NCBI RefSeq assembly: GCF_026151205.1
Contig: NC_087077.1
Span: forward strand, 18,026,475-18,090,474
Source: Bolinopsis microptera
Lineage: Eukaryota > Ctenophora > Tentaculata > Lobata > Bolinopsidae
Reading direction: 5' to 3'
Length of the DNA stretch: 64,000 nt
Shown: piece after piece, positions 5,587 to 49,968 of the stretch
Position numbering within the stretch: position 1 is the stretch's first letter
Layout: each line of letters starts with the position of its first letter
Notes under the pieces: model-generated
The model's database searches: none
The model's input: only the letters and a program-made list of their open reading frames with translations
What the model was told of the DNA's origin: nothing
Program-made: the position numbers and the translations under genes

Positions 5587-5794
5587 CTCATAAAGGTAAA
5601 GGTGAAATTTACTTAATTACTGTAGATAAGTCACGGTACTTTCTACACACAGGACTGAAAGTCTTCGTTAGAAGTATCTGACTAGGTCACGTTATTATTA
5701 TCATATTTTGTATTAATAGTAAGTCTATACTCTCTTAAATATATCATAATATAACTATAATACTAACGAATATAATACATTATCTCATAGTTCT

Positions 5795-6906
5795 ATGAAC
5801 GAATCTCAGCGTTGCAACAAATGTTATACACGTATTCCTAAAGCACGTTCGTTCCTAATTTGCAGTCACTGCGACAAAATAAAACATATGAAATGCATGA
5901 AGTTATCTAAGTCTGAGGCAAAAATAATTGTAGATTCTGGCTCTGCCTGGATATGTTATGACTGTATTTCCAGCGCCTTACCAGTAAATGCATGCCCCTC
6001 GGCAAAGCCACCGAGACAAGGGCCCGTCATAGGTCCTAAATTTAAAGTTCAATGCACATGCTGTAATGGCTGGATTTACTCCCCCGCCAACCTGAAAACC
6101 TGCCACTGGTGCGAATCTAAAGTACATACCAAATGTCACTCCGACTTATTAGGATGCAGAAATTGCTGTGAAAATATGATCCCGGGATACTATGTACATT
6201 GCTATCAGCTATACTCATTACATACACATACTCACACCGGCGTAATCCACAATCCCTACGATCGCTATCAGTTGATTAACGAAATAGGAAATACAATTGA
6301 CCAAGATCAGGAACTCGAATATTGGAATGAGATTTCTGATATTTTAGTTAGCTGCAATTACATGGAGCCGACAAATGTAAGTTCGTCAGGACCATGTGAT
6401 CTTAAGATATTTACCTTAAACATACGGGGACTTCTTAAAAACGTAGACAAATTAAGAGAAGATATATTCACGTACTCGAAGTATGATGTCCTTTGTTTTA
6501 ACGAGACTAATCTCTTGCAGGATAAGCTTCCTAATGGTATTAATGACCTAGTGCTTGAGGGATTTTATGAACCACTGTTACGAGATCCAATACGTAGTTC
6601 TGGTCGTGGTGGGGGTTTAGCAATTTATATCAATACGCGCGTATGCGAGTCTGAAAATATTGAAAAATTCTTTCCCCAAAACTTTGATGTGACAGACAAG
6701 AGTGGTGAATTCATGTTGGTAAAACTCCATAACTGCAAAGGCTTTAACAAAACAAAGATAATCGTCAATATATATCGGTCACCAGCATCAAAAAATCCTG
6801 ATAATTTTAACAAACTCATTGACTCCCTATTACACGGCATGGAAAGGCACTCGAGAAAACATACTATATTAGTCGGTGATTTCAATGTAGATCTTACACA
6901 TTATGA
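5795..6906 (+). pseudogene. LINE ORF, 5' part: PHD fingers and endonuclease
   Basis: About 371 codons from ATG 5795 to the foldback insertion. A first zinc finger shows C7, C10, C23, C26, H31, C34, C54, C57, the C4HC3 spacing of a PHD finger. A second Cys/His cluster (about C87 to C124, with H111) looks like another treble-clef finger. From about residue 203 comes an APE-type endonuclease with LNIRGL, FNETNL, GGGLAIYI, IYRSP and the GDFNVDL catalytic-site motif. PHD plus endonuclease plus RT in one frame is known in CR1-clade LINEs. After 6906 the frame runs 23 codons into insertion sequence and stops at 6976, so that tail is not native. The remaining endonuclease motifs (SATLIDH, SDH) lie in the other piece. 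Confidence 0.9.
6901..6906 (+). repeat. Target-site duplication TTATGA, left copy
   Basis: TTATGA directly abuts the left terminal inverted repeat of the foldback element. The identical hexamer follows the right terminus at 13549-13554. Confidence 0.85.
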
Positions 6907-6949
6907 AGGCCTCCCCCAGCCTCGGATCTTAGGATTAGATTTGCAAAAA

Positions 6950-7335
6950 TTCCTGAGACACAGGTGCAAAAGTTAAGACAGCAGAATAATCCTAAGACAG
7001 CAGAATAATCCTAAGACAAAATTTAAGAAATCCTGAGACAGCGAAAAATCCTGAGACAAAATTTAAGAAATCCCGAGACAGCGAAAAAACCTGAGACAAA
7101 ATTTAAGAAATCCCGAGACAGCGAAAAAACCTGAGACAAAATTTAAGAAATCCCGAGACAGCGAAAAAACCTAAGACAAAATTTAAGAATCCTGAGACGC
7201 GCGAAAAAACCTGAGACAAAATTTAAGAAATCCCGAGACAGCGAAAAATCCTGAGACAAAATTTAAGAAAACCTGAGACAGCGAAAAATCCTGAGACAAA
7301 ATTTAAGAAAACCTGAGACAGCGAAAAATTTTTAG
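6950..7335 (+). repeat. 40-bp tandem repeats in left foldback arm
   Basis: About eight to nine copies of a 40-bp unit containing cctgagacaaaatttaag and cgagacagcgaaaaa, with variants. The inverted counterpart is at 13065-13510. Confidence 0.9.
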
Positions 7336-12230: not shown

Positions 12231-12302
12231 ATCCGAGTAGCTTAGCGGCTAGGCGATCGGCTAGCTCTGCGCGAGGTCGGGAGTTCAAACCTGCGTGAAC
12301 AC
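12231..12302 (+). other. tRNA-like (SINE-type) block, right arm
   Basis: A box TAGCTTAGCGG (12238-12248) and B box GTTCAAACC (12283-12291) both match Pol III consensus, with a tRNA-like spacing of about 45 bases. Transcription would run rightward, outward through the arm. The acceptor stem and anticodon arm are not convincing, so this is a tRNA-derived promoter block. It is the better preserved of the two arm copies. Confidence 0.7.
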
Positions 12303-13064: not shown

Positions 13065-13510
13065 GTATAAATTGTATCTAAAGATTTTTCGCTGTCTTAG
13101 GTTTTCTTAAATTTTGTCTCAGGATTTTTCGCTGTCTCAGGTTTTCTTAAATTTTGTCTCAGGATTATTCGCTGTCTCGGGATTTCTTAAATTTTGTCTC
13201 AGGTTTTTTCGCGCGTCTCAGGATTCTTAAATTTTGTCTTAGGTTTTTTCGCTGTCTCGGGATTTCTTAAATTTTGTCTCAGGATTTTTCGCTGTCTCAG
13301 GATTTCTTAAATTTTGTCTTAGGATTTTTCGCTGTCTTGGGTTTCCTTAAATTTTGTCTCAGGATTTTCCGCTGTCTTAGGTTTCCTTAAATTTTGTCTT
13401 AAGAATTTTCGCTGTCTTAGCTTATTTTGACATCTCAGGTTCGCTTAAATTTTGTCTCAGCTTTTTTTGCTGTCTTAGCTTTTCTTAAGCAGTTTGTCTT
13501 AGGAATTTTT
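13065..13510 (-). repeat. 40-bp tandem repeats in right foldback arm
   Basis: Inverted counterpart of 6950-7335, with about ten to eleven units. Copy number and variants differ between arms, so the arms have drifted or been rearranged since formation. Confidence 0.9.
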
Positions 13511-13548
13511 GCAAATCCAATCCTAAGATCCGAGGCTGGGGGAGGCCT

Positions 13549-13554
13549 TTATGA
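13549..13554 (+). repeat. Target-site duplication TTATGA, right copy
   Basis: Pairs with 6901-6906. Joining 6906 directly to 13555 keeps the LINE frame: the split GA_T codon is completed and no stop is created. Confidence 0.85.
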
Positions 13555-16102
13555 TACTGACAAACATTGTCAAAATTTGATTGAAACTATGACTAAATAC
13601 GGTTTCTTTCAGCTAGTCTCACGTCCCACACGTATCACTGATCACAGTGCCACTCTTATAGATCATGTTTACAGCAATAACGTACAACACACACACAGCT
13701 GCAATGTTCTTACTGTTGACCTGTCTGATCATCTAGCCACTCTTGTTACTATCTCACTTGGGCAATACAGCCACATTGCAGGGAGTAGAAACAAACGACA
13801 CAGAGTCGACCATGGAATGAATATTGAAAAACGTATGTTTAACGAGTCGAACAACCTTAAATTTATAGAATTAATTGGATCCGAAATGTGGGAGGAAGTC
13901 ACACGTGAAAATTGTGCTGATGAACAATATAACAAATTTATTGAAATATACGGTCAGCATTATGATGAGGCATACCCAGTGAAAACCAATCATGTGCGCC
14001 GCAAATTTGAAAGGCAGGACCCCAAACCTTTTATGCTACCCTGGCTTGAAATTGCCTGTGCTCGTAAAAACAAATTATTCCATGCCAAAATAGTGGACCC
14101 AACGGAGGAAAACTACAAGGCTTACAAAAAGCATAAGGCATTCTGCGACAAGCACGTCAATAAGGCAAAAGACAAATACTACAAAACACAATTTGATAAG
14201 TATAAAGATTGTTCAAAGAAACAATGGCAGCTGATCAACACTCTACTTGGCAGAAGATCTAAATCTCATAACAAAATTAAACTCCAAAACGCCGACGGAA
14301 ATATCATAAATAGTGACAGTGATGTAGCTGAGCACTTTAACTCTTACTTCTCCAACATTGCCACAAAAATCAAAGATGCGATCAGCGCGCGTACTGTATT
14401 CGATCCAGGGGGTTTTAAACATTACCTTAGCAGCCCAGCTTCGCAGTCTATGTTCGTAAGACCAACTACCGAAAGTGAAGTTGAACAAATTATTAGCAAG
14501 CTTAAGAATAAATCCACTCAAGACACTAAAATTGAACCCCTAAAAATTGTAAAAGACTGCCCCTCCTTCTGTAAAGTCTTGTCCATAATCATTAACACAT
14601 CATTTAGTCAAGGTATCTTCCCATCATCTCTCAAAATAGCTAAAGTTATACCAATTCACAAAGGAGGCAGCAAATCCGACGCCACTAACTATCGACCCAT
14701 ATCTTTGCTGTGCACCTTTTCCAAATTGTATGAAAAACTTATGCATAATAGAGTAATGGACTTCCTTGACAAGAAAGGCTCGCTCTTTGAAGGGCAATAT
14801 GGCTTCCGGCCAGGCCGATCCTGTGAGCATGCTCTTTTGGATGCTCAACACACGATTCTGAATTCCCTTGCCAAAAAGGAAGTTGCTCTATTACTCCAAG
14901 TCGACTTTAGTAAAGCTTTTGACGTTTTGTCTCATGATGTATTGATTGACAAACTCCAGCACTATGGAATCCGTGGGCAAGCTTTGCAATGGTTTCAATC
15001 CTACCTGAGCACACGTCAGCAATACGTATGTTTGAATGGTATTAAATCAGCTCTTAAACCTATTACATACGGAGTTCCACAGGGCAGTATTATGGGACCT
15101 TTGTTATTCCTAATCTACATCAATGATATGCCAAATATCAACAGTATGATAAAGTTTATACTCTACGCTGATGATGCGAACATCATAATAAAAGGCAAAA
15201 ATGCAAACGATGTTATACAAAAATTCAACCAATTCTCCCACGAGTTTGTACGCTGGGTTGACTGTAATGGACTTGCACTTAATCTAAAAAAGACCTGCTA
15301 TATGCTTTTCGGTGTTAGAAATACTGATAATACTCCAAATATTCATATTGCAGACACACAATTAGAACGTAAAAGGGAAGCACGGTTCCTTGGCGTTATA
15401 ATGGATGATAAACTAACATGGTCTAAGCATATAGCAGCTGTTAGATCAAAAATGATGCGGTATGTAGGAATTATGTATAAAATAAAACGTTACCTATCGA
15501 TTCAAATAAGGCTACAGATATATCAAAGTTTTGTTCAATCGCATTTAAACTTCTGTTCAATTGTATGGGGGTTTGCAGCAAAAAATCACATTGAATCACT
15601 CTTCTCACGACAAAAACAGGGTATCAGGGCAGTAATGCCAGGTCACATTAATTACTTTTACAAAGACGGTCGACTGCCAGAACACACAAAACAATTTTTC
15701 AATAACAATGGTATACTCACGGTGCACAGTGTTATTGTAAAAAACACACTAATTCTCATGCACCGAATCAAACATTTCCGCAGCTCAGTCCCTCAACAAA
15801 TCTGTATGACTATCCCAGAAAATGCACCCACTGCAAACTCAGATCACGTGACTGCAGCATCCTGGTTAGCCGAGTACAACACCACACATTTCAGATCTTC
15901 GATGTTCTTCAAAGGACCTTTACTCTCAATTTATGCTGTAAATGCAAATGTAAGCACCCTACCCACACTTTTTTCCATAAACCTTTTTAAATCGGCTACA
16001 AAACGCATGCTCTTGAACCTGCAGAGTGAAAATGATGATGACACGTGGCCCAGTTTCTTATTACATAATATTCCAGGTCTAAGAAGGTCACAACGTGTTT
16101 GA
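13549..16102 (+). pseudogene. LINE ORF, 3' part: endonuclease end and reverse transcriptase
   Basis: About 850 codons in frame to TGA at 16100-16102. The open frame extends upstream to an ATG at 13427, but those 42 codons are foldback sequence. It begins with the end of the endonuclease (PTRITDHSATLIDHVYSN, then LSDHLATL), followed by a Lys-rich linker and the RT: IPIHKGGSKSDATNYRPIS (near 14650), YGFRPGRS, VDFSKAFD (near 14900, first catalytic Asp), GVPQGSIMGPLLF and LYADDANI (near 15165, catalytic Asp pair), then LNLKKTCYMLFG and RFLGVIMDDKLTW. All RT motifs look intact. There is no RNase H and no AGHC tail. It is the same gene as 5795-6906, disabled only by the insertion as far as can be read. 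Confidence 0.92.
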
Positions 16103-46330: not shown

Positions 46331-47007
46331 AATGTTTTATAATTGTGATCAAATGTTAAAGTTCGATTGCAAAATTAATTCGTTGGTTCTCGCGTTTTAT
46401 CCACAGTGAACTCGTCTGTGGTATTTCACAAAAATAATTCATTCGCAAAAATAGGGATGTAAATGAAACATATCTACGTATCTTATTAGCTTATTGAATT
46501 ATTGATAATATTGGATTATGATATCGGTTTATGATCATTTCGCTTTACCTTGTGTCAACAGCTTTTTTATTTGTCTAATACATTTTTTCGTATTGAATCT
46601 CCGTTATCTTTATTCTTGTAGTTTTTTTTGCGCTGCTGACATCACATGTTATGTTAGTTGTCAATTACTACACCGCATAACACACCGCTAAGTTGATATT
46701 GTTTGTTTTTTCATAATTCAAGTGTTACACTGTTAATTATATTTATAATATATATATTTTTATTCAGCCACAACTGTCAGTAAAACAACGCCTTGACTTC
46801 AAATGTCGGTAAAATGTACCTTTACAGTCATCCTCAATAAATGTATTTAATTGTAGTTGTGAAAATAGTTTAAAACTATTTAGTTATAAAATATATATTG
46901 CTTTCATCAATATATATATATTAATAAAATGATGCAAAGAACTATTTCGAAGATCTAATCAACACCGACTTTTAATGTGTAGGAGTACAGCAACAAAATA
47001 TATATAT

Positions 47008-47064
47008 GTATATCCATAGTCACATTGTTTCGTCCTATTAGGACTCATCAGTATGGCTCAAATC
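47008..47064 (-). ncRNA. Hammerhead ribozyme motif, copy 1, mutated cleavage triplet
   Basis: The - strand has the core CTGATGA, stem II GTCC/GGAC, GAAAC, a short stem III and stem I CCATA/TATGG. The cleavage triplet reads GAC where the intact copy reads GTC: one substitution breaks the A15.1-U16.1 pair. Expected to be inactive or very weak. Confidence 0.75.
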
Positions 47065-47084
47065 ATCAGGGTTGGTTTTGCCGA

Positions 47085-47151
47085 TGGCGGGTATCGACCC
47101 AGCAACCTTGCGATTACTGGCTCGGCGCCACACCACTGGGCCGCCAAGCCC
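47085..47151 (-). other. tRNA-like promoter block upstream of hammerhead
   Basis: The - strand begins GGGCTTGGCGGCCCAGTGG (A-box-like, 47133-47146) and has GGTCGATACC (B-box-like, one mismatch, about 47090-47099), then GCC-ATCGGC. Spacing is tRNA-like. It lies directly upstream, in - strand sense, of hammerhead copy 1, so Pol III transcripts would start with this head and run into the ribozyme. Confidence 0.6.
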
Positions 47152-47284
47152 TTAATGATGAGGGAGTTACAGAGGTACCTCACTGCTCTACAAACTCATT
47201 ACAAGTTAGGAGCTTTGCATTTAAGCTGAGCGGTAGATCTATTCATTCCCTAGAGTGCTCAAGCTTAGAAAAATAGGCGAGCAT

Positions 47285-47340
47285 ATTTATCCATAGACAC
47301 AGTGTTTCGTCCTATTAGGACTCATCAGTATGGCTCAAAT
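47285..47340 (-). ncRNA. Type I hammerhead ribozyme, complete
   Basis: Read on the - strand: stem I 5' strand CCATA (47329-47333), core CTGATGA (47322-47328), stem II GTCC/GGAC with loop TAATA (47309-47321), GAA (47306-47308), stem III ACA/TGT with loop CTG (47297-47305), C17 (47296), then stem I 3' strand TATGG (47291-47295). An outer ATTT/AAAT helix extends stem I past an internal bulge. All invariant hammerhead positions are present and the cleavage triplet is GTC. Cleavage is predicted between 47296 and 47295. Short stem III and open stem I make it type I, as in retrozymes, schistosome Sm-alpha and Penelope-like elements. Confidence 0.9.
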
Positions 47341-48357
47341 CATCAGGGTTGGTTTTGCCGATGGCGGGTATCGATCCAGCAACCTGCTTATATATATATA
47401 TATAATTCAAACCTGCCCAAGCTAGATAGCCATGGCTTGGGGGTACTGTTAATTATGATCAGTACAGTTTATTTTCCCGCATGATAGGGATATCAACATC
47501 AATATTAGTAGAGGAACAATACCATCACTTGGTTTGTTTAGGGTTCGGGATTCAGTCGGCCACCAGATTGATGGGACTGTCTTAGTCTCGTATATTCGTC
47601 AGAAGTACGTGGTGTCTTCACTCTTCTACAGTACTTCTCTCCATACAGCACTCAGAAGTAACTTTACAACTCTTTCACTCACCTCTAATAACTTTGTCCT
47701 TCCGCATTCCTCCGCCCTTTTTACTCATGGTCTAATTTTCCAGCTCAGAGAGCACTACACCTTTCTATTTTTTTCCTCGCTATAGCTGCTAATCAGTTAT
47801 AGGCTGTGGCCAGGCTTTGTTGTTATTGTTGTTATTATTGTTGTAGCACCCACTCTACTACAATATAGCTACGCACGAAGGAGGCGACTATTTCTAATGG
47901 GGTCCCGCCCGTTTCTCTGGTGTCGAACTTGAGTGCTAACCTCACTGTGTCGTCAGAGAGTTCTCAGAGTACAAGGACCGGGTCAGGGAGGTGCCTTTTT
48001 TGTAGAAATACTCACACCCACGCACACCCATGGTCACGTTTTGATTTACAGGGGTCTCGGGCGAAATGAATGAAATTAGCACTTGCTTGGAATGCGTCCG
48101 TTTTCAATCTACCCACTCTCTCAGCGGCGTGTCTTTACGCCATGCTCCACAGCACATCTTTTAAACTAAAATATCGGCCCAGGCCTCTGCTGTGCCTAGG
48201 CCTCTGCTTCAACTATAAGTTTTATCTGTCCACAGTATGAAATTTATTGGCTTGGCAGGTTTACTGGTTAAGTGACAAGAAATGTCGGGATAGATGCTGT
48301 CATTGACTGGCTGACGAGTTAAATATACCAAGTTAAATTAATCACGTTTAGATGGCT

Positions 48358-48528: not shown

Positions 48529-49411
48529 AGGCATAGACATTAGACATGTCACTTAAAAATCTAAATTTGTCAGTGAACCCGGTATGACAGATTAATCAGT
48601 CTGTTGCACATTATGTCACTAAAAATTCATTCCCAGTATTCCTTGTAGGATTCTTGTGTCAACTTTTGATTTTAGCCCCTCTCTCAAATTGTTGCTTTTG
48701 CTACACGTTAATATTCCTGCTTATTTTATTTATTAATTACTATATATAGTCTTGCTTTTTTATAATTGTGATCAAATGTTAAAGTTCGATTGCAAAATTA
48801 ATTCGTTGGTTCTCGCGTTTTATCCACAGTGAACTCGTCTGTGGTATTTCACAAAAATAATTCATTCGCAAAAATAGGGATGTAAATGAAACATATCTAC
48901 GTATCTTATTAGCTTATTGAATTATTGATAATATTGGATTATGATATCGGTTTATGATCATTTCGCTTTACCTTGTGTCAACAGCTTTTGTATTTGTCTA
49001 ATACATTTTTTCGTATTGAATCTCCGTTATCTTTATTCTTGTAGTTTTTTTTGCGCTGCTGACATCACATGTTATGTTAGTTGTCAATTACTACACCGCA
49101 TAACACACCGCTAAGTTGATATTGTTTGTTTTTTCATAATTCAAGTGTTACACTGTTAATTATATTTATAATATATATATTTTTATTCAGCCACAACTGT
49201 CAGTAAAACAACGCCTTGACTTCAAATGTCGGTAAAATGTACCTTTACAGTCATCCTCAATAAATGTATTTAATTGTAGTTGTGAAAATAGTTTAAAACT
49301 ATTTAGTTATAAAATATATATATATTAATAAAATGATGCAAAGAACTATTTCGAAGATCTAATCAACACCGACTTTTAATGTGTAGGAGTACAGCAACAA
49401 AATATATATAT

Positions 49412-49468
49412 GTATATCCATAGTCACATTGTTTCGTCCTATTAGGACTCATCAGTATGGCTCAAATC
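49412..49468 (-). ncRNA. Hammerhead ribozyme motif, copy 3, mutated cleavage triplet
   Basis: Duplicate of copy 1 by the tandem duplication, with the same GAC triplet in place of GTC. The tRNA-like head is cut short at 49528 by the deletion junction. Confidence 0.75.
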
Positions 49469-49968
49469 ATCAGGGTTGGTTTTGCCGATGGCGGGTATCG
49501 ACCCAGCAACCTTGCGATTACTGGCTCGATACCAAGTTAAATTAATCACGTTTAGATGGCTGAATGACGGTCAGTTTGATACTCCTGACACAGTAACAGT
49601 AAACAGAGCTATCTCCGTCAGAAGGTTATCAAAATACAATACAAATATTATCTCCGCACCTTATTATAAACCAGCATTGCTAAAAATCCTAAAATTCCCT
49701 GTGTTCTTAGTCTTCAAAATGGGACACTTATAAGGCATAGACATTAGACATGTCACTTAAAAATCTAAATTTGTCAGTGAACCCGGTATGACAGATTAAT
49801 CAGTCTGTTGCACATTATGTCTCTAAAAATTCATTCCCAGTATTCCTTGTAGGATTCTTGTGTCAACTTTTGATTTTAGCCCCTCTCTCAAATTGTTGCT
49901 TTTGCTACACGTTAATATTCCTGCTTATTTCATTTATTAATTACTATATATAGTCTTGCTTTTTTATA

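Follow-up and report, generated by a model that had tools for sequence, protein, structure and literature searches.

A probable hammerhead-ribozyme retrozyme of the ctenophore Bolinopsis microptera, with a sharp 3' end in TA tracts

A 64,000-nt stretch of Bolinopsis microptera DNA (the window) encodes on its minus strand a type I hammerhead ribozyme, which is the 3'-terminal part of a repeat unit of 277 bp that starts with a tRNA-like head. We consider it likely that the repeat is a metazoan non-LTR retrozyme, non-autonomous and built like Sm-alpha, moved via circles and by priming at TA tracts, the enzyme probably being a Penelope-like one supplied in trans. Elements of this kind are already known; this family adds a readable insertion anatomy, namely a sharp 3' end in TA tracts. 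The preliminary description had offered retrozymes, Sm-alpha-type SINEs and Penelope-like elements as candidate carriers of the ribozyme. The unit, short (277 bp), tandem and equipped with A and B boxes, matches a metazoan retrozyme of the Sm-alpha type; it is not a Penelope-like element in its own right. Metazoan non-LTR retrozymes are recognised by type I hammerheads in tandemly repeated units 150-450 bp long, as found here; other marks of the group are target duplications of more than 4 bp, the lack of LTR, primer-binding site and polypurine tract, and expression as both linear and circular RNA. The unit (coding capacity at most 92 codons) is too short at 277 bp for a frame with reverse transcriptase and GIY-YIG domains, and such frames belong to neighbouring elements.

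The invariant core and an NUH cleavage triplet (GUC) are present at 47289-47335 (-), as the preliminary description had read them. The covariance-model search that it proposed was run and gives Hammerhead_1 (RF00163) a score of 35.9 bits against a gathering threshold of 34, with E = 6.1e-6 for the 15 kb searched and E = 2.6e-5 when the whole window is searched; no other match in the window reaches gathering level. Stem I has 6 pairs and one G.A mismatch, stem II has 5 pairs and an AAU loop, and cleavage is predicted between 47296 and 47295, in agreement with the position 47295 named earlier. The hammerhead had also been called complete, which holds for the sequence (core, GUC, stems I and II) and less so for stem III, which in the monomer has only 2 bp and a CUG loop. 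Matches to Rfam RAGATH-1 and miRNA models fell below gathering and were disregarded.

The minimum-energy fold of the isolated 47-nt ribozyme RNA is not the hammerhead (z -0.89), and the hammerhead-constrained share in a 61-nt stretch is about 1e-4. For this stretch the hammerhead reaches -3.6 against -10.1 kcal/mol for the best fold in the monomer, and -18.9 against -28.6 kcal/mol in the dimer; that it is less stable than other folds in both forms counts against our reading. Stem III of the dimer hammerhead has six pairs and one U.U mismatch, which accords with the dimer-acting minimal hammerheads described in parts of PMC7761336. Among schistosome W-element hammerheads, which have an extremely short stem III, three of the five candidates assayed cleaved, according to passages of PMC8490949.

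The ribozyme had been placed in a repeat, and two more copies indeed lie in the window, at 47012-47058 and 49416-49462. Across the genome (264.65 Mb, 232 contigs), a 33-base ribozyme pattern finds 86 sites when as many as 3 mismatches are allowed (62 match exactly), spread over contigs C1 to C13 and C70, while the reversed control pattern finds 0. Other hammerhead types were sought by fixed patterns in the genome and within the fetched loci. A hammerhead pattern with free loop positions gave 85 sites (0 in the control) and added only forms of the 277-bp family, and another scan for hammerheads, over 331,342 bases (the window and 42 loci, both strands), gave four matches of non-standard form, all of them family variants. 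A genome search with 139 bases returned 101 candidates; among the best 40, which were scored and include the window's own, many lie 277-278 bp apart.

At the window locus, a 5'-truncated unit with the intact ribozyme (47385-47289) is followed by a full unit (47288-47012), both on the minus strand (Table 1). The A and B boxes of the full unit are each one base off the consensus form, so that this copy fits neither, and its hammerhead is predicted to be non-cleavable because it carries GAC instead of GUC. Judged by sequence, the window locus is probably a relic, since the intact ribozyme sits in a unit without an A box and the triplet of the next unit is non-cleavable; in many other copies the ribozyme sequence is intact. 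The hammerhead copy at 49416-49462 (-) likewise has the triplet GAC (22.2 bits) and belongs to a duplicated segment that matches 46909-47124 at 100% over 216 nt. Two segmental duplications are present in the window (46335-47124/48758-49528 at 97.5%, and 48325-48764/49529-49968 at 99.3%), and part of the retrozyme is copied in them. LINE-type frames lie elsewhere in the window (5750-6973 and 13421-16099, plus strand). They encode an endonuclease domain, accompanied by a weak match to a PHD finger, and a reverse transcriptase, and are separated by long TCC and minisatellite repeats. Matches to a 7tm_1 receptor and to C2H2 fingers accord with an animal host.

Table 1. Retrozyme features and neighbouring sequences in the window (coordinates of the window).
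Feature	Position	Strand	Basis
Intact-core type I hammerhead ribozyme	47289..47335	-	Rfam RF00163, 35.9 bits, E 6.1e-6
First unit, unit positions 181-277 only (5'-truncated): last part of tRNA-like head including B box, intact ribozyme	47289..47385	-	blastn to the 277-bp unit, 96.9%
Second unit, complete at 277 bp	47012..47288	-	277-bp spacing of two ribozymes; genome matches
tRNA-like head of second unit	47074..47163	-	A-box region 47143-47133, B-box region 47099-47091
Second hammerhead copy, GAC for GUC	47012..47058	-	Rfam 22.2 bits, below gathering; alignment
Unit fragment with mutated hammerhead (49416-49462)	49416..49528	-	Segmental duplicate of 46909-47124
TA-rich tract, 5' side of array	47389..47406	.	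Sequence
TA-rich tract, 3' side of array	46997..47011	.	Sequence
Match to Penelope-like 3' end, facing the array across the TA tract	46921..47003	+	blastn to Penelope-like pieces of L013 and L032
Second Penelope-like 3'-end match, same arrangement	49325-49407	+	blastn to pieces of L013 and L032

The head of the unit was scored with A- and B-box forms that we take to be the consensus. The A-box form fits 42 of 43 units and the B-box form 53 of 56 (both locus groups), with varying letters, and the two boxes occur together, mostly 33 nt apart, in 34 of the 40 units of at least 130 nt. On the two strands of the window just one further strict pair of boxes occurs, at 12238 (+), where ARAGORN finds no tRNA. 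The unit head was not recognised as a tRNA by Rfam (two loci) or by ARAGORN (the window and 19 loci). Along its head, a unit variant from L025 aligns with a resident tRNA-type SINE at a score of 43 (best of 300 shuffles, 26); the majority unit sequence scores 18 (shuffles up to 26) and L026 scores 25 (29). The unrecognised head, and two of three unit sequences that do no better than shuffles against the SINE, weigh against our reading. The SINE itself lies at L025:540-659 (-), inside a Penelope-like 3' part, and has 655 candidates in the genome, the best 40 of which were scored and are 97-100% identical.

For conservation we counted differences in 49 units whose loci had come up by similarity to the unit. 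Loci that came from the ribozyme pattern were kept apart because that search is biased towards intact ribozymes, and L029, L041, L044, L048 and one window array, taken as duplicates, were left out. The ribozyme is the most conserved part of the unit, with 9 differences from the majority in 2,273 sites, compared with 48/3,868 in the spacer, 16/457 in the A box and 26/429 in the B box. The head is the most variable part of the unit (170/3,061 outside the boxes), a further point against our reading. The absence of TTTT from 28 of 30 units might be taken as selection for Pol III read-through, and this idea was rejected, as 59% of dinucleotide shuffles lack it too. We also rejected the idea that the minus-strand copy of L039 and the copies of L048 and L049 belong to a different element sharing just the 3' half of the ribozyme; the sequences of L048 and L049 suggest copies truncated on the 5' side within a duplicated repeat.

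We read 48 arrays, taken from the window and 42 fetched loci, which cover all but 15 of the 86 ribozyme sites. One unit or part of one makes up 32 arrays, 12 have two units, and there is one array each with 3, 5, 6 and 7, so that 16 of 48 hold 2-7 units when truncated units are counted. The 3' end falls at unit position 277, 7 nt beyond the predicted cleavage site, in 43 of the 48 arrays, although the query, too, stops at 277 and a few additional bases would escape the search; the sequence immediately 3' is TA-rich in most arrays, and L035 is perhaps four bases longer. The remaining five arrays end at 275, 273, 272, 267 and 183, and none of the 48 ends at the cleavage site (position 270). The copy that ends at 267 (L020) looks like an array split by an element of about 3 kb with inverted arms (L020:2007-4986). 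First units start variably, at positions 1 to 245. A minus-strand copy in L037 starts at TATGGAT, the predicted 5' end of cleaved RNA, a single case that may be due to chance.

Of 46 arrays, 43 have TA repeats no more than 25 nt from the 3' end and 29 have them equally close to the 5' end; among background 25-mers, a set that includes the array flanks themselves, the figure is 499 of 13,251. The 17 arrays with no TA repeat within this distance on the 5' side count against our reading. The 3' flanks vary from locus to locus, and each matches its own 5' flank better than those of other arrays: in a suffix-prefix test for target duplications (41 arrays), own flanks share a mean of 6.3 nt and swapped flanks 4.3 (p 0.0008), while a local-alignment version, a weaker measure that we count against our reading, gives p 0.04, the lengths in both being blurred by the low complexity of the flanks. 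Locus-specific 3' flanks that match their own 5' flanks look like target sequence and not like a carried tail.

Units within an array are close relatives, diverging by 1.9% (60 pairs) against 5.5% between arrays (1,495 pairs), and the lowest within-array value reached in 500 shuffles of the labels is 3.3%. With ties counted, 27 of 35 units have their nearest relative in their own array. The homogeneity test and the suffix-prefix flank test left out L029, L041, L044, L048 and one window array as duplicates, together with L015, whose copies are two separate insertions. The array of L014 is an exception to this homogeneity; its mixed unit types would not be expected from one circle and thus speak against our reading. 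In L015, L016, L019, L027, L029, L031, L034, L037 and L042, retrozymes adjoin common stretches, at least about 1 kb long, of another dispersed repeat, in both orientations.

We propose the following route. The tRNA-like head would direct Pol III transcription through the tandem units, and the hammerhead, which is weak by itself but can pair with another copy, would cut the transcript into 277-nt pieces that would then be joined into circles. A TA tract would be nicked by an enzyme acting in trans, most probably a Penelope-like one. Reverse transcription of the circle would then begin at AUAAAUAU, starting in the last bases of ribozyme stem I, where the RNA resembles the TA primer and may pair with it. 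More than one trip round the circle would give tandem units, and a stop anywhere would leave a truncated first unit. The RNA across the unit junction reads AUAAAUAU and agrees with a TA repeat in 7 of its 8 bases, so that a nicked TA tract could prime there. The fixed end 7 nt beyond the cleavage site could not come from cleaved linear RNA, which ends at GUC; a circle or an uncut transcript could supply it. The AUAAAUAU stretch exists only across the unit-unit (circle) junction, a place for which cleaved linear RNA has no sequence.

Penelope-like elements are the most probable source of the enzyme. Penelope-like frames occur in 7 of 43 sources: GIY-YIG matches exceed the Pfam cut-off in L013, L025, L032 and L047, and the 818-residue frame of L033 matches RVT_1 (E 0.0014) and GIY-YIG (E 0.021) weakly, in each case under the cut-off. 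Penelope-like DNA starts 13 to 31 bp from the array in L013, L025, L036 and L047. The idea that arrays favour Penelope-like neighbours was nevertheless dropped, because such DNA comes within 80 bp at 14 of 48 arrays, and at 8 of the 22 TA tracts that served as controls from these loci; proximity no commoner than at control tracts indicates shared targets and is no proof of partnership. Penelope-like elements and retrozymes both use TA tracts, with no further link between them. One Penelope-like family is very young (L013:1994-3347, L025, L047), its 3' part being 98-100% identical in 40 of 41 matches among the best 40 of 341 candidates. This family ends in AAATATAT beside TA repeats. For a lizard Penelope-like protein, passages of PMC11167929 describe cutting of AT-rich DNA and reverse transcription that begins within the RNA.

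The same retrozyme might instead be mobilised by a LINE enzyme, which we think rather unlikely. The window does hold a LINE-type reverse transcriptase frame (RVT_1 E 2.4e-35), and Nematostella retrozymes with 15-bp duplications of LINE type are described in part of PMC4918200. Two observations point instead to the Penelope-like enzyme, namely the use of the same TA tracts by Penelope-like copies and the youth of the family just described.

The main rival to a circular template is an uncut transcript that runs into its own TA flank. The repeat would then be an ordinary SINE with linear RNA, whose (UA)n tail primes and whose ribozyme takes no part in insertion. The TA repeats that follow the 3' end in 43 of 46 arrays do resemble SINE tails, tandem units could arise by read-through of existing arrays, and mixed arrays such as that of L014 fit. 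The hammerhead of the lizard Penelope-like element is protein-assisted and dispensable for insertion in vitro, and hammerhead mutants of PAc still insert in vitro (both from passages of PMC11167929), which counts against a need for cleavage. The variety of the 3' flanks, with their preference for their own 5' flanks, speaks against a carried tail; the homogeneity of the arrays and the ribozyme's standing as the best kept part of the unit also count against this rival, and we judge such a linear SINE unlikely.

That the unit is only the pseudo-LTR piece of a hammerhead-bearing Penelope-like element, with no separate element involved, is very improbable. Published Penelope-like elements do carry minimal hammerheads in their pseudo-LTRs (PMC7761336, in part), and Penelope-like frames lie 3' of arrays on the same strand in L013, L025, L036 and L033. 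Yet Penelope-like copies at these loci end in sequences other than the 3' end of the unit, they also occur opposite in strand to the arrays (L032, L047), and no hammerhead was detected in the long copy of L033, a result that weighs against our own reading as well. Least probable of all is satellite DNA spread by unequal crossing-over or segmental duplication and not through RNA: apparent segmental duplicates exist (window 47012/49416, L028/L029, L040/L041, L042/L044, L048/L049), against which stand the spread of sites over C1 to C13 and C70, the single 3' end with varied 5' ends, and the preference for TA targets.

Among known systems, the family resembles the metazoan non-LTR retrozymes of Cervera and de la Pena 2020 (PMC7229834, in part) in its type I hammerhead, short tandem units (150-450 bp in that paper) and dispersed arrays, and differs from them in its internal A/B-box head, its 2-bp stem III and its fixed 3' end beyond the cleavage site, in TA tracts. 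The terms 'polymerase III', 'SINE' and 'microsatellite' are absent from the main text of PMC7229834, and TA-tract ends beyond the cleavage site were not found described in the portions of the retrozyme literature surveyed. Retrozymes seem to lack promoters, and any motif that would indicate the mobilising element, according to excerpts of a 2020 review (PMC7761336). With schistosome Sm-alpha/Sj-alpha, as described in parts of PMC2770079 and PMC4918200, the unit shares a type I hammerhead in a short repeat and probably a tRNA-derived part; Sm-alpha has a full tRNA-Gln and an estimated >10,000 copies, whereas in the present family only A and B boxes were recognised and 86 ribozyme sites were counted, and the likeness is one of description. 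The same holds for schistosome W-elements (PMC8490949, in part), which are other sequences that share satellite-like repeats and a very short stem III.

The likeness to Penelope-like minimal hammerheads extends to a very short stem III, likely better as a dimer (parts of PMC11167929 and PMC7761336), and to AT-rich targets and an internal start of reverse transcription (PMC11167929, in part). Unlike Penelope-like elements, the unit has no frame for reverse transcriptase and endonuclease, and the Penelope-like copies in the arrays' loci have other 3' ends and no detected hammerhead. The tRNA-type SINE of the same genome shares the A/B-box head, and one unit variant aligns with it; the SINE has 655 candidate copies, and the stretch of it that was read has no hammerhead.

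Taken as a whole, the genomic anatomy may record target-primed reverse transcription templated by circular RNA, and metazoan retrozymes may be SINE-headed circles that use Penelope-like enzymes and TA repeats, a generalisation that we advance tentatively and to which we give somewhat less than even weight. The family offers a lead on how retrozymes are transcribed, through its internal A/B-box head, and on the enzyme that mobilises them, through its sharp end and TA target.
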